Of a DNA stretch of 64,000 nucleotides, positions 24,325-40,356 are shown in pieces. Source of the DNA: Paracoccus spongiarum (GTDB lineage Bacteria > Pseudomonadota > Alphaproteobacteria > Rhodobacterales > Rhodobacteraceae); NCBI RefSeq assembly GCF_030732095.1, contig NZ_JAVAMQ010000005.1, positions 1 through 64,000 of the forward strand, given 5' to 3'. Under the pieces are notes generated by a model that was given only the letters and a program-made list of their open reading frames with translations, searched no databases and was not told the DNA's origin. Position 1 is the first letter of the stretch, and every line of letters starts with the position of its first letter. A program made the translations under genes and the position numbers.

Positions 24325-25659
24325 ATGACCGACGACGCCAGCACCGGGCCGGTGAAGAAACTGTTCATCAAGACCTATGGCTGCCAGATGAATGTCTATG
24401 ACAGCCAGCGCATGGCCGAGGCGATGGGCGCGGAAGGCTATGTGCTGACCGAGGACCAGGCCGATGCCGACATGGTGCTGCTGAACACCTGCCATATCCG
24501 CGAGAAGGCGGCCGAGAAGCTGTATTCCGACCTCGGGCGGCTGAAGCCCCTGAAGGCGGAACGTCCCGACCTGACGATCGGCGTGGCCGGCTGCGTGGCA
24601 CAGGCCGAGGGGGCCGAGATCATCCGCCGGATGCCGCTTGTCGATCTGGTGGTCGGGCCGCAGACCTATCACCGCCTGCCGCAGATGCTGCGCGGAGAGG
24701 CGCCCGCGGTCCTGACCGAGTTCCCCGCCGAGGACAAGTTCGACCACCTGCCCGAACGCCGCGCCACCCGCCGCGCGCCGTCGGCCTTCCTGACCGTGCA
24801 GGAGGGCTGCGACAAGTTCTGCGCCTTCTGCGTGGTGCCCTACACGCGCGGTGCCGAGGTCAGCCGCCCTGTCGACCGCATCCTGCGCGAGGCGCGCGAT
24901 CTGGTCGCCCGCGGCGTGCGCGAGATCACCCTGCTGGGCCAGAACGTGAATGGCTGGCATGGCGCGGGGGCCGACGGGCGGGACTGGGGCTTCGGCCGGC
25001 TGATCCGGGCGCTGGCCGAACTGCCGGGGCTGGACCGCATTCGCTATACCACCAGCCATCCCAACGACATGGCCGAGGACCTGATCGCCGCGCATGGCGA
25101 GGTCCCGCAGCTGATGCCCTATCTGCATCTGCCGGTGCAATCGGGCAGCGACCGTATCCTGAAGGCGATGAACCGCAAGCACACCGCGGACCAGTATCTG
25201 CGCCTGATCGACCGGATCCGCGCCGCGCGGCCCGACATCATGCTGACCAGCGACTTCATCGTGGGCTTTCCGGGCGAGACCGACCGCGACCACGCCGACA
25301 CGCTGGCCCTGATCGAGGCGGTCGGCTTCGGCACCGCCTTCAGCTTTCGCTATTCGCCGCGTCCGGGCACCCCCGCCCATGACCGCCCCGAGGTCGACGG
25401 CACCCTGGCCGATGCACGGTTGCAGGAATTGCAGGCGCTGCTGAGCCTCCAGCAGAAGGCCGCGCAACAGGCGATGGTGGGCCGCCGGCTGGGCGTGCTG
25501 TTCGAGAAGCCGGGCCGGCTGCCGGGCCAGATGGTCGGCAAGTCCGATTACCTCCATTCGGTCTTCGTCGATGCGCCGCAGGCCCGGCCCGGCGATCTGC
25601 TGCAGGTGCGCATCGTGGAAAGCGCGCCGAATTCGCTGCGCGGCGAACTGGCCGCCTGA
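24325..25659 (+). CDS. miaB: tRNA-2-methylthio-N6-dimethylallyladenosine synthase MiaB
   Basis: 444 residues. An N-terminal UPF0004 domain begins [19 protein letters not shown] and has its cluster cysteines (YGCQMN, NTCHIR, AGCVAQ); the radical-SAM motif is CDKFCAFC in the centre; a TRAM domain ends the protein. It methylthiolates i6A37 of tRNAs reading UNN codons. ATG 24325 follows CAGGGA. In this genome it sits tail to tail with ccoP, separated by an unusual stem-loop region. Confidence 0.95.
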
Positions 25660-25670
25660 TCCGCCGGGCG

Positions 25671-25689
25671 GCGCGGGCGCGCCCCGCGC
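25671..25689 (+). terminator. Hairpin just after miaB
   Basis: GCGCGGG and CCCGCGC form a 7-bp stem with a five-base loop, 11 bases after the miaB stop. No T-run; plausible weak terminator. Confidence 0.4.
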
Positions 25690-25726
25690 GTGGCGGTTGC
25701 CCATGCCCGAGGCGGCTGGCAAGCAT

Positions 25727-25778
25727 GGAAGGCCGGCCCCCGTGAACGCGCGACCATATCGGGGGGCCGGCCCCTTCC
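25727..25778. repeat. Stem-loop A of a twin pair between miaB and ccoP
   Basis: Left arm GGAAGGCCGGCCCCC (25727-25741) pairs with GGGGGCCGGCC-CC-TTCC (25762-25778), a 15-bp stem with a two-base bulge. The 20-base loop contains GAACGCGCGA (25744-25753). The same decamer and a bulge at the same place occur in stem-loop B 100 bases further on. Confidence 0.75.
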
Positions 25779-25845
25779 GCGCGGACCAGCCTGCGCGAAA
25801 GCCGTGGGCAGGGCGGGAACGCGCCGCCATCTCTGCCGTCGTGGA

Positions 25846-25895
25846 AAAGGCCGCCCCCGAGGAACGCGCGAACAGGACTTGGGGGCGGCCTCTTT
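25846..25895. repeat. Stem-loop B of the twin pair; likely ccoP terminator
   Basis: Left arm AAAGGCCGCCCCC (25846-25858) pairs with GGGGGCGGCC-TC-TTT (25881-25895). The loop again holds GAACGCGCGA (25862-25871). On the minus strand the stem is followed by a short T-rich run, so it can end the ccoNOQP transcript, whose stop codon lies 43 bases away. The remainder of the 278-bp gap shows nothing else I can name. Confidence 0.75.
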
Positions 25896-25937
25896 CGCCG
25901 CGGCGAACCCCGGCGAAAGCGCGATCGGTCCGGGCGG

Positions 25938-26966
25938 CTATTCGCCGCCGCCCAGCCCGTGAACATAGGTCGAGACGGCGCGGATATCGGCCTCGTCCAG
26001 ACGCGAGGCCCAGGCCGGCATGACGCCATAGGGCCCTTCGGTGATGATCCGGTTCAGCGTCTCGGGCTCGCTGCCGTAAAGCCAGACCGCATCGGCAAGG
26101 TTCGGCGCACCCTGCGTCCGGTCGCCGCTGCCGTCCTCGGCGTGACATGCGGCGCAGTTCTCGGCATAGACCACCGCGCCCTCGGCGGCGCTGGCGGCAT
26201 CATGCGGCAGGTCCGACAGCGACAGCACGTAATCCACGACCTGCTGGATCTGCGGCCGCTCCAGCAGCCCGTCGCGGCCAAAGCGCGGCATCTCGGAATA
26301 GCGGGTGTCGGGATCGTTCGGGTCGCGGATGCCGTGCTGCAGCGTCAGGTGGATGTCCTCCAGCGTGCCGCCCCACAGCCAGTCATTGTCCAGAAGGTTG
26401 GGATAGCCCCGCGCCCCCGCCGCGCCCGAACCGTGGCATTGCGCGCACCAGGTGCGGAACACCGCGCCGCCTGCATTGGTCGCGTAGTTCACCAGTTCGG
26501 GATCGTTCGGGATCTCGGACAGCTCGACCGAGGCAAGGCGGGTCTGGATCGCGGCATTGGCCTGGTCGAAGCGTTCGATCTCGGCCGCGACCTGCTGGCG
26601 GTTGGTGGTGCCCAGCAGGCCCCTTGTCGCCCCGTTGACAAGCGGGATCGCGGGATAGGCGATCACGTAGAAGACCGCCCAGACGATGGTGGCGTAGAAG
26701 GTCCACAGCCACCAGCGCGGCATCGGGTTGTCGTATTCGGTGATGCCGTCCCATTCATGGCCGGTCGAGGGCACCTCGTGGGCGATCACGCCATGCCGGC
26801 CCCGGGCTCGCTTCTTCGGCGCGGCCGGGCGGTCGGGGGCGGTCCGCGGCGGGATGTCCCCGGCCAGCTTGGCCGCGTGTTCGCTGTCGGCGGCCTGACG
26901 TTCCAGACCGATCCGGTCGTCCTCGCCGGGGGCGCCCGTTTCCGGCTTGTCCTTGTCCTCGGCCAT
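25938..26966 (-). CDS. ccoP: cbb3-type cytochrome c oxidase subunit III (CcoP, dihaem)
   Basis: 342 residues. A long charged cytoplasmic N-terminus (about 80 residues) precedes one main membrane segment ([21 protein letters not shown]), then two c-type haem domains with CAQCH (174-178) and CAACH (271-275) and methionine ligands further on. It passes electrons from cytochrome c towards CcoO and the catalytic CcoN. Its ATG shares a base with the ccoQ stop. No ccoGHIS assembly genes follow; the operon ends here in a stem-loop. Confidence 0.96.
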
Positions 26967-38778: not shown

Positions 38779-40356
38779 TCAGTCGTCGAACAGGTTCGGG
38801 GTGGCGGCCAGATCCTGCGCGATTTCCGGCGAGACATCCAGAAACCGCGCCAGCGCGGCGGCATTGCGCTCGATCCCCTGCGCGGCGGCGCAGGTCTCGA
38901 AGCGGGAAAAGCCCATGTCGCGCAGCCGTTCGACCTCGTGTTCCAGATCGCCGCGAACCACCGGCAGCAGCCGGTCAAGCACGTCGGCCGGTGTGCTGTC
39001 GTTGGCCAGCCCGATCCGGCCCATGTGGCCGCGCAGATAGTCGTCGTCGAAGGGTGTGTCGATGAACAGGATGCGCGCCTCGGCCCGGTCGGCCGCGAAA
39101 TCGCTGATGAGGTTCAGCCCCGAGGGGTCGAGGCACAGCACCAGCTGGGTCGCGTCAAGCTGTTCGAACAGCAGCTTGACCAGCGCACGGCGGTGCCGCG
39201 CGCGCTTGGCCACGGTCGAGGCCACGCCGCCCATGTCGGGCAACGCCGCATCCGCCTCGTCGAAGACGTAGTCGACGGCCGGAATCGCGGTCAGCGCCCG
39301 GATCCGCGCGGTGAGCCGCTTGGCGACATGCCATTTCTTGGCGACGATCAGATGCACCACATGCGACCGCCCCAGGCTGCCGTCGGTTTCCCAGGCGCGC
39401 GGCGCGAATCGCCGGCCGACCCGTCCCCGACCGGTCAGGAAGCGGATCAACCGGGGGCCCTCGGCCGAGATCGGAAACTCCTGCCCCTCGGACTGCCACA
39501 GCGCGCCCAGCCCTGCCCGCAACTGCTGCGCCTCGGCGCTGATCTTGCGCGCGAACAGGCTGTCCTGCCGCAGAAGAAGGTCGTAGTGGTCGTTGTAGAA
39601 CGTGACCGGCATGCCGTAATCGGTGAACATCAGGAAGGTCAGCGACCGTGACCGGATCTGGGTGCGCGGCACCAGATGCGCGACAAGGGTCTGGAAGAAG
39701 GTCTCGTCGGGGATCCAGGTCGTGCGGAAGAAGCGCGGGATGGCCGGCACGGTCGCGATCAGTTCCAGCACCGCCTCGACCGTCCGGCGGCGCAGGCACC
39801 ACCATTGCGAGCCGATCATCACCTGCAGGCCCTCGGGAACGCTGCGCTGCAGGCCAAGCCGCTTCTGCACCGCCATGCTGGCATAGAACAGCGCCTTCTG
39901 GCGGCGCTCGTTGAACCAGTGGCGATAGATCAGACGTTCCTCGGTGATGCCGGTCTTGATCCAGCCGCCATTCAGGAAATCGACGCATTCGATGTGGTCG
40001 CATTCCTCGCTGTCGAGGAAGCGCCGCGCATATTCCGCCGACTTCACCGGCATGCAGTCGCCCGACAGCAGGTAGAAATGCGTCGCCTGGCTGAACCGCG
40101 CCTCGGCCTCGCGCAGGGTCGTCAGCGTCGCCCCGACCAGCGACCATTCGCCCCAGCCGCAGCGGATGCGGCGCGGCGCGAAACACACGCGGGGATGATC
40201 GGCCAGGGCCTCGCGGATGCGCCGGTAATCCTCGCGCGGGGCATTGCGGTCGTGGTGGATCGCCACGAAATCGCCCGCGGCGGTCAGGCGCCGCGCCTGA
40301 TCGATCACCCCCTGCGGGTCCTTGTGGGTCAGAAGGATGAACGCGATGCGCGCCAT
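38779..40356 (-). CDS. GT14-type (core-2/I-branching) glycosyltransferase with C-terminal extension
   Basis: 525 residues. The N-terminal 280 residues resemble beta-xylosyl/N-acetylglucosaminyltransferases of family GT14 (ARIAFILLTHKDPQGVIDQARRL, IHHDRNAP, FYLLSGDCMPVKS, SQWWCLRRRTVE, TWIPDETFFQTL). The C-terminal 240 residues are a second domain with a nucleotide-kinase-like flavour that I do not recognise further (alternating Rossmann strands HVVHLIVAKKWHVAKRL, LVLCLDPSGLN). It is divergent from a sulfotransferase gene, suggesting joint action on a surface glycan. Confidence 0.82.
   Translation of the reverse strand: MARIAFILLTHKDPQGVIDQARRLTAAGDFVAIHHDRNAPREDYRRIREALADHPRVCFAPRRIRCGWGEWSLVGATLTTLREAEARFSQATHFYLLSGDCMPVKSAEYARRFLDSEECDHIECVDFLNGGWIKTGITEERLIYRHWFNERRQKALFYASMAVQKRLGLQRSVPEGLQVMIGSQWWCLRRRTVEAVLELIATVPAIPRFFRTTWIPDETFFQTLVAHLVPRTQIRSRSLTFLMFTDYGMPVTFYNDHYDLLLRQDSLFARKISAEAQQLRAGLGALWQSEGQEFPISAEGPRLIRFLTGRGRVGRRFAPRAWETDGSLGRSHVVHLIVAKKWHVAKRLTARIRALTAIPAVDYVFDEADAALPDMGGVASTVAKRARHRRALVKLLFEQLDATQLVLCLDPSGLNLISDFAADRAEARILFIDTPFDDDYLRGHMGRIGLANDSTPADVLDRLLPVVRGDLEHEVERLRDMGFSRFETCAAAQGIERNAAALARFLDVSPEIAQDLAATPNLFDD

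Follow-up and report, generated by a model that had tools for sequence, protein, structure and literature searches.

The genome of Paracoccus spongiarum carries two long hairpins between miaB and the genes of the cbb3 oxidase, and the question raised by this locus is what these hairpins do and which of the neighbouring genes they serve. The window analysed here is a stretch of 64,000 nucleotides (NZ_JAVAMQ010000005.1, positions 1 to 64,000), in which open reading frames and profile matches place miaB on the plus strand (24331..25659, start codon approximate; NCBIfam TIGR01574, E 2e-142) and ccoP, encoding cbb3 oxidase subunit III, on the minus strand (25938..26966; NCBIfam TIGR00782, E 6e-127). 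The two genes converge on a gap of 278 bp (25660-25937), and ccoP, the last gene of ccoNOQP, lies directly upstream of the element.

The initial annotation of this gap had described two long stem-loops sharing an identical loop decamer, and both were indeed found, at 25729-25774 and 25845-25894, with GAACGCGCGA exact at 25744 and 25862 and at no other site in the window. The proximal hairpin, nearest ccoP (B2, 25845..25894, minus strand), has a 14-bp stem and a loop (25859-25880) that contains the conserved UCCUGUUCGCGCGUUCCU. The distal one (B1, 25729..25774, minus strand) has a 13-bp stem and a loop (25742-25761) that is partly degenerate, UCGCGCGUUC being retained, unlike the fuller loop kept in G049, the best match of a locus search in 125 Paracoccus genomes. 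Both were delimited from the fold and from perfect 11-bp cores (25848-25891 around a 22-nt loop and 25731-25772 around a 20-nt loop), to which G-U and end pairs add the rest of the minus-strand stems. The two-base bulge ascribed to the right arm of each appeared in the predicted fold of the first hairpin, the second having a one-by-one mismatch. The stems had also been described as different, yet they are not independent: the two hairpin units are 70% identical across 74 nt, and thus look like a tandem duplication. Companion stems, overlooked in that annotation, adjoin the hairpins on the minus strand: A2 (CUUUCGCCG/CGGCGAAAG, 25892..25919, 9 bp) immediately precedes B2 on the RNA strand, in a layout also seen in relatives, and A1 (25774..25801), read from the sequence, lies 5' of B1 and includes one G-U pair, the corresponding stretch aligning in relatives. 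Of 75 other hairpins, 35 had a stem of at least 8 bp within the 45 nt upstream, where shuffles gave 6%, and 15 had one downstream.

Two copies of the decamer are weak evidence when taken alone, 8 of 100 shuffles of the window holding at least two. Throughout the genome it occurs at 27 sites, versus 7 for a reversed-pattern control; only the window pair sits in the loops of 11-bp stems, three others lying in stems of 7-8 bp. On these counts, a genome-wide role of the decamer was rejected.

Comparison with relatives pointed to a longer conserved unit. Read on the minus strand, the first class of loop is GUCCUGUUCGCGCGU(U)UCC, carried by variable, covarying stems, so that the decamer is kept as a part of a loop of about 17-19 nt, borne by a strong stem and conserved at its tip. 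The alignment of 96 hairpins, of which 78 were distinct, had 97.6% of its cells paired, and 11 of the 12 pairs changed on both sides, as matched by 2/500 shuffles; pairs 2-11 held some G-U pairs and no unpaired cell. The arms covary, with a score of 0.635 (0.179 when shuffled, at most 0.141 when slid) that was above every shuffled and slid version, in an alignment fitted to the structure and thereby favouring it. Of 22 miaB-ccoP gaps with both genes within reach, extracted from the locus search in 125 Paracoccus genomes and including the window, 17 had two copies of the decamer and 5 a single one; the stems vary, the loop is constant, and in gaps with an additional ORF the hairpins remain on the ccoP side. 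These comparisons support two proposals of the initial annotation, namely that a constant loop on variable stems reflects a selected RNA structure and that this structure is tied to the ccoNOQP 3' end. The decamer itself fared less uniformly, being kept in 22/30 loci of the genus; in the rest of the family the loop is longer by one U, and in 29 family loci chosen by model score the decamer was exact in none and CCUGUUCGCGCGUUUCC in all. The refuting condition set in the initial annotation, hairpins kept in relatives without the loop decamer, was thus borne out partly to the letter but not in substance.

The strand in use could also be assigned. Among 1048 pairs of 75 hairpins, we counted 52 G-U pairs, 20 A-C and 20 other mismatches, G-U and A-C being scored alike in hairpins that were picked by their loop and partly shared species with the covariation set. 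Ten-nucleotide tails contained on average 3.4 T on the ccoP strand versus 1.5 on the opposite one (77 hairpins), the window copies having at most 4 T after the B2 stem and fewer after B1. The excess of G-U pairs and the T-richer tail indicate an RNA read in the sense of ccoP, hence on the minus strand and not on the strand used in the initial annotation.

The distribution of the element was determined with covariance models. R1, built from 12 hairpins, matched 78/125 Paracoccus genomes, with two matches in 31 that were neighbours in 29 (the pairs of G012 and G117 were not), and 181/394 family genomes, mostly once each among those listed, so that the doubling of the hairpin is not an essential trait. 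R2 matched 85/149 genomes of an order sample and 3/289 genomes of the whole class, all of them Rhodobacteraceae, the family of the window; these large searches used the stricter filters of Infernal, by which weak matches are lost. In the window, B2 matched R1 with E 3.9e-8 and R2 with 57.5 bits, and B1 matched R2 with 40.6 bits (E 2.2e-5). A scan of genome contigs for the exact loop CCTGTTCGCGCGTTTCC gave at least 119 loci, with 124 sites among the matches listed: 77 of the 85 listed sites near ccoP or ccoG passed the stem cut-off, several of the 8 failures having bulged stems, and none of the 39 listed sites away from these genes did. A search of Rfam 15 with 2 kb of the window found nothing at E 1, and five relatives gave two weak, unrelated matches, far below the gathering score.

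Genomes that escaped the models were read as well. No CcoP was found at E 1e-30 in 15 of the 47 Paracoccus genomes without an R1 match (12 of the 43 of good quality). Thirty loci from R1-negative, CcoP-positive Paracoccus comprised altered loops in L167, L169 and L170 and a second loop class (see below) in L183-L186, the others having no such hairpin and, in L187-L191, a distant CcoP-like protein only. In L167, L169 and L170, the loop of the ccoP 3' hairpin is partly first-class, mainly on the GCGCGUUU side; these are possible intermediates of loss or change. Among family controls, 40 match-free genomes were searched for CcoN, of which 36 were positive and 30 provided loci, and the 20 from other genera were extended to the ccoP 3' end: there, 17 had other, mostly short-looped hairpins, 2 (one genus) had the second loop class, and 1 had none by the cut-off.

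An RNA of this kind had been proposed previously. The accessible text of Brewer et al. (2021; PMC8632094) describes HRC-8-4, a candidate motif with 160 representatives in Rhodobacterales, located between ccoNOQP and ccoGHIS, usually although not strictly followed by ccoG or hvrB, and speculated to be a riboswitch or a site of HvrB binding. On comparison with this textual description, the window element is very probably a tandem, shortened-loop variant of the same class. Both are found in Rhodobacterales, directly after ccoP, with ccoG or an hvrB-like gene next in other genera, and have a strong terminator-like stem with conserved nucleotides at its tip; the confinement of our matches to a single family of that order is in line with this. 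The window differs by its two tandem copies, its loop one U shorter, the convergent miaB next to it, its weak U tail and its companion stems. We hold with high confidence that it is an RNA element of HRC-8-4-like class, "like" being retained because neither ccoG nor hvrB lies downstream, as strict membership would have it.

Our overall reading, on which we are evenly divided, is that a tandem-duplicated, HRC-8-4-like RNA of Rhodobacterales forms a terminator-like hairpin in the 3' untranslated region of the ccoNOQP mRNA, whose near-invariant loop would be the working part, through pairing with RNA. From a mechanistic point of view, the exposed loop would offer a pairing surface, borne at the message's 3' end or on a fragment processed from it, through which another RNA may be bound; that the loop works by base pairing is a tentative suggestion, drawn from sequence comparison. 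Where the second loop class is found, a plausible partner is the start of the same mRNA, at the 5' end of ccoN, and such pairing would provide feedback control of cbb3 oxidase synthesis.

This second class, with the core CUGUUCGCA, provides the clearest candidate partner. In five of the first six examples (two genera), GCGAACAG was present at -46 to -54 upstream of ccoN, L393 being the exception. A model of this class, R3, gave 26 listed matches in the 394 family genomes: 9 between ccoP and ccoG with a second-class loop (one already known), 1 with a first-class loop (L427), and 16 without ccoP within the 3-kb stretch. Seven further second-class ccoN leaders could thus be read, one other stretch lacking ccoN, and 5/7 held the full or partial complement, after its first detection in 5/6: GCGAACAG in L448, L449 and L452, GCGGACAG in L453, UGAACAGG in L450 and none in L447 and L451. 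FNR-type boxes have the consensus TTGA-N6-TCAA and, in class II promoters, transcription starts 41 nt from the box centre. We accordingly placed the ccoN +1 at 41 nt from the centre of the most downstream box found with a looser pattern, since many first-class leaders have two boxes; taking the first box instead left the second-class starts unchanged except in L451. The complement GCG[A/G]ACAG sits at this predicted start: it was found at -5 to +12 in 9/13 second-class leaders versus 0/27 element-free ones (a further one lacked a box), and in 1/41 and 0/20 first-class leaders. Within 350 nt upstream of ccoN, the exact 8-mer was present in 8/13 second-class, 2/41 and 0/20 first-class and 0/28 element-free leaders, and was absent from the other strand of all of them; several of the 13 second-class genomes are close relatives, so that p-values overstate the case. 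The flanks of the second-class core did not covary with the leader (own versus permuted, p 0.52). It is conceivable, if rather doubtful, that CCUGUUCGC in the 3' loop pairs with GCGAACAGG where FNR-dependent transcription is predicted to begin, so that the mRNA is closed or censored and the cbb3 oxidase comes under feedback, the lineage of the window having acquired a longer loop, another partner and a doubled hairpin. Pairing between the 5' and 3' ends is thus a lead, strongest outside the lineage of the window. If the second-class complement corresponds to real pairing, the end of a respiratory operon mRNA would control its own start.

For the loop class of the window itself, the ccoN leader was not supported as partner, which weighs against our overall reading: first-class leaders were no better partners than those of element-free genomes (Mann-Whitney p 0.75 for 41 versus 18), with a slight lean in favour in the Paracoccus subset (p 0.045 for 20 versus 10), and the longest match between the window's own ccoN leader and its loop was 6 nt. 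Isolated first-class complements were seen, 13 nt and exact at the predicted start in L238, and 11 nt and nearer the start codon in L224. At the ccoN start, GAAGGGAC was found in 31/36 non-Paracoccus genomes with the element versus 6/20 family genomes picked as match-free (two of them second-class), kinship being uncorrected. The ribosome-binding region of ccoN reads GACGAAGGGACG in many genera (e.g., L231, L259 and L237) and looks unusually conserved for a leader sequence. Stretches of at least 8 complementary bases occurred in 7/66 ccoG leaders (4.3 expected) and 2/16 hvrB-like leaders (1.0 expected), and neither was retained as a partner. A 12-base complement of the loop at 39548-39559 of the window is antisense inside a minus-strand ORF and was judged a chance match, and kissing through the CGCGCG palindrome is not general because the second loop class lacks it.

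Alternatively, the loop could be bound by a protein under whose action the 3' end of the ccoNOQP mRNA is stabilised or processed. We consider this possible, to about the same doubtful degree as the closing of the mRNA on its own start: a long conserved loop on a variable stem would suit such a protein, no same-strand gene is required downstream, and duplication would supply a second site, but the complement at the predicted ccoN start of second-class genomes would be left unexplained. Somewhat less likely, in our view, is a trans-acting small RNA derived from the 3' end, for which the loop would be a seed directed to other mRNAs and the ccoN complement incidental. Its conserved single-stranded loop of 17-19 nt would be apt for this purpose, and Rhodobacter sphaeroides makes terminator-ended small RNAs from 3' untranslated regions, as indicated in the accessible text of PMC8625941. 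However, exact 14-mer complements numbered 61 in the 125 Paracoccus genomes, and all but 4 (in four genomes) lay at the ccoP place; candidate targets at start codons (CGAACAGGA...ATG) were rejected, as the pattern occurred in 125/125 genomes, the presence of the element making no difference by eye, and is thus uninformative.

Our overall reading shares its logic with OppZ and CarZ, autoregulatory small RNAs from 3' untranslated regions in Vibrio, in which, according to the consulted part of PMC7398697, an operon transcript is bound by RNA from its own 3' end; by contrast with these, pairing here would be achieved by a hairpin loop, with a candidate partner mainly in the second class. The main text of two papers on small RNAs of Paracoccus denitrificans (PMC5107571, PMC6686037) and the accessible text of PMC8625941 contain no mention of cco. 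We found no other paper on a small RNA from ccoNOQP or a conserved RNA at this place, in a coverage that excluded most subscription papers and preprints.

It remains to be asked which gene the element serves. Brewer et al. (2021), as far as the accessible text of PMC8632094 goes, speculated on a riboswitch embedded in a terminator, or a switch bound by HvrB, acting on the downstream ccoG or hvrB. Gene order seems to agree with this in much of the family, since among the 80 cco loci listed from the exact-loop scan the order was ccoP-element-ccoG in 48 and ccoP-element-hvrB-like gene in 9, and the U-richer tail would also suit such a switch. Within Paracoccus, however, the downstream gene is often replaced. 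Among the best-scoring 30 of 78 loci, ccoP was upstream of the element in all 30, and the next recognised gene was convergent in 22 (miaB in 16, an uncharacterised ORF in 4 and, in 2, an ORF that we take to be RlmJ-like). The same-strand gene directly downstream that a 5' riboswitch or leader would act on is thus absent there, as in the window, where miaB is next to the element and ccoG is on another contig; of the 8 loci without such a convergent neighbour, 6 had ccoG next and 2 a different ORF on the same strand. Moreover, 23 genomes were chosen from the convergent group and searched for ccoG, which was present in 22 and always elsewhere, with the element within the 1.5-kb flanks of ccoG in none of these 22 rearranged genomes (two model matches at these loci, with E 2.8 and 5.9, amount to none). 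The convergent neighbours, together with these ccoG loci devoid of the element, show that the element goes with the ccoP transcript and not with the downstream gene, and it is likely, with good confidence, that it also works with that transcript. The rearranged genomes thus amount to a natural experiment in which ccoP and ccoG have been parted, and what is new here is that they tie the element to the operon's own message and not to its usual following gene. For Paracoccus, the reading as a riboswitch or HvrB-bound switch is disfavoured, and we consider it improbable overall. Genome comparison shows a structured RNA, read from the ccoP strand, which has stayed beside ccoP in rearranged Paracoccus and there needs no same-strand gene downstream.

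Two observations nevertheless stand against our overall reading of a loop that pairs at the end of the oxidase message. In some Paracoccus, ccoP is followed by a degenerate loop or by no such hairpin, and in 7 of the 80 listed loci the element follows an hvrB-like LysR gene and not ccoP, whereas HRC-8-4 always has hvrB downstream in the accessible text of PMC8632094. The designation "hvrB-like" follows that paper, NCBIfam giving only a sub-threshold match to GcvA. In Shimia thalassica, copies occupy both positions (L218, L239).

An ordinary intrinsic terminator, with a loop conserved by chance or hitch-hiking, is hardly credible in spite of the terminator-like shape and of the ordinary short-loop hairpins that most element-free genomes have at the corresponding place, given that CCUGUUCGCGCGUUUCC was exact in the 29/29 family loci chosen by model score despite turnover of the stem and that the window copies have at most 4 T after it. 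A scan of the window for intrinsic terminators, restricted to loops of 3-8 nt, found none. The initial annotation had opposed its conserved loop to plain terminators; the conserved loop is borne out, but the opposition was too sharp, other genera showing a terminator-like, U-richer tail.

Tests of HRC-8-4 are hereby redirected to the oxidase message itself, for which Paracoccus denitrificans DSM 413 offers a tractable organism: its locus (L291, the same sequence as G026) has one first-class copy in the order ccoP-element-ccoG, with one R1 match. Stretches of 501 nt from G026, G033 and G020 match loci of P. denitrificans, P. halophilus and P. binzhouensis, respectively, without a difference. 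Some further features were observed around the element. In some members of Paracoccus (L052, L055, L045, L038, L043; L079), the space from miaB to the element holds a conserved ORF of some 121 aa; the copy compared with NCBIfam gave no match. In L376 and L380, which lack the element, hairpins after ccoP have FNR-box-like loops, e.g., TTGATGCAAATCAA. Copy number also varies in the family, with two copies each in G440 and G476 and, in a single genome, a tandem array of three at a spacing of about 91 nt (G309:C42:10837-11061).
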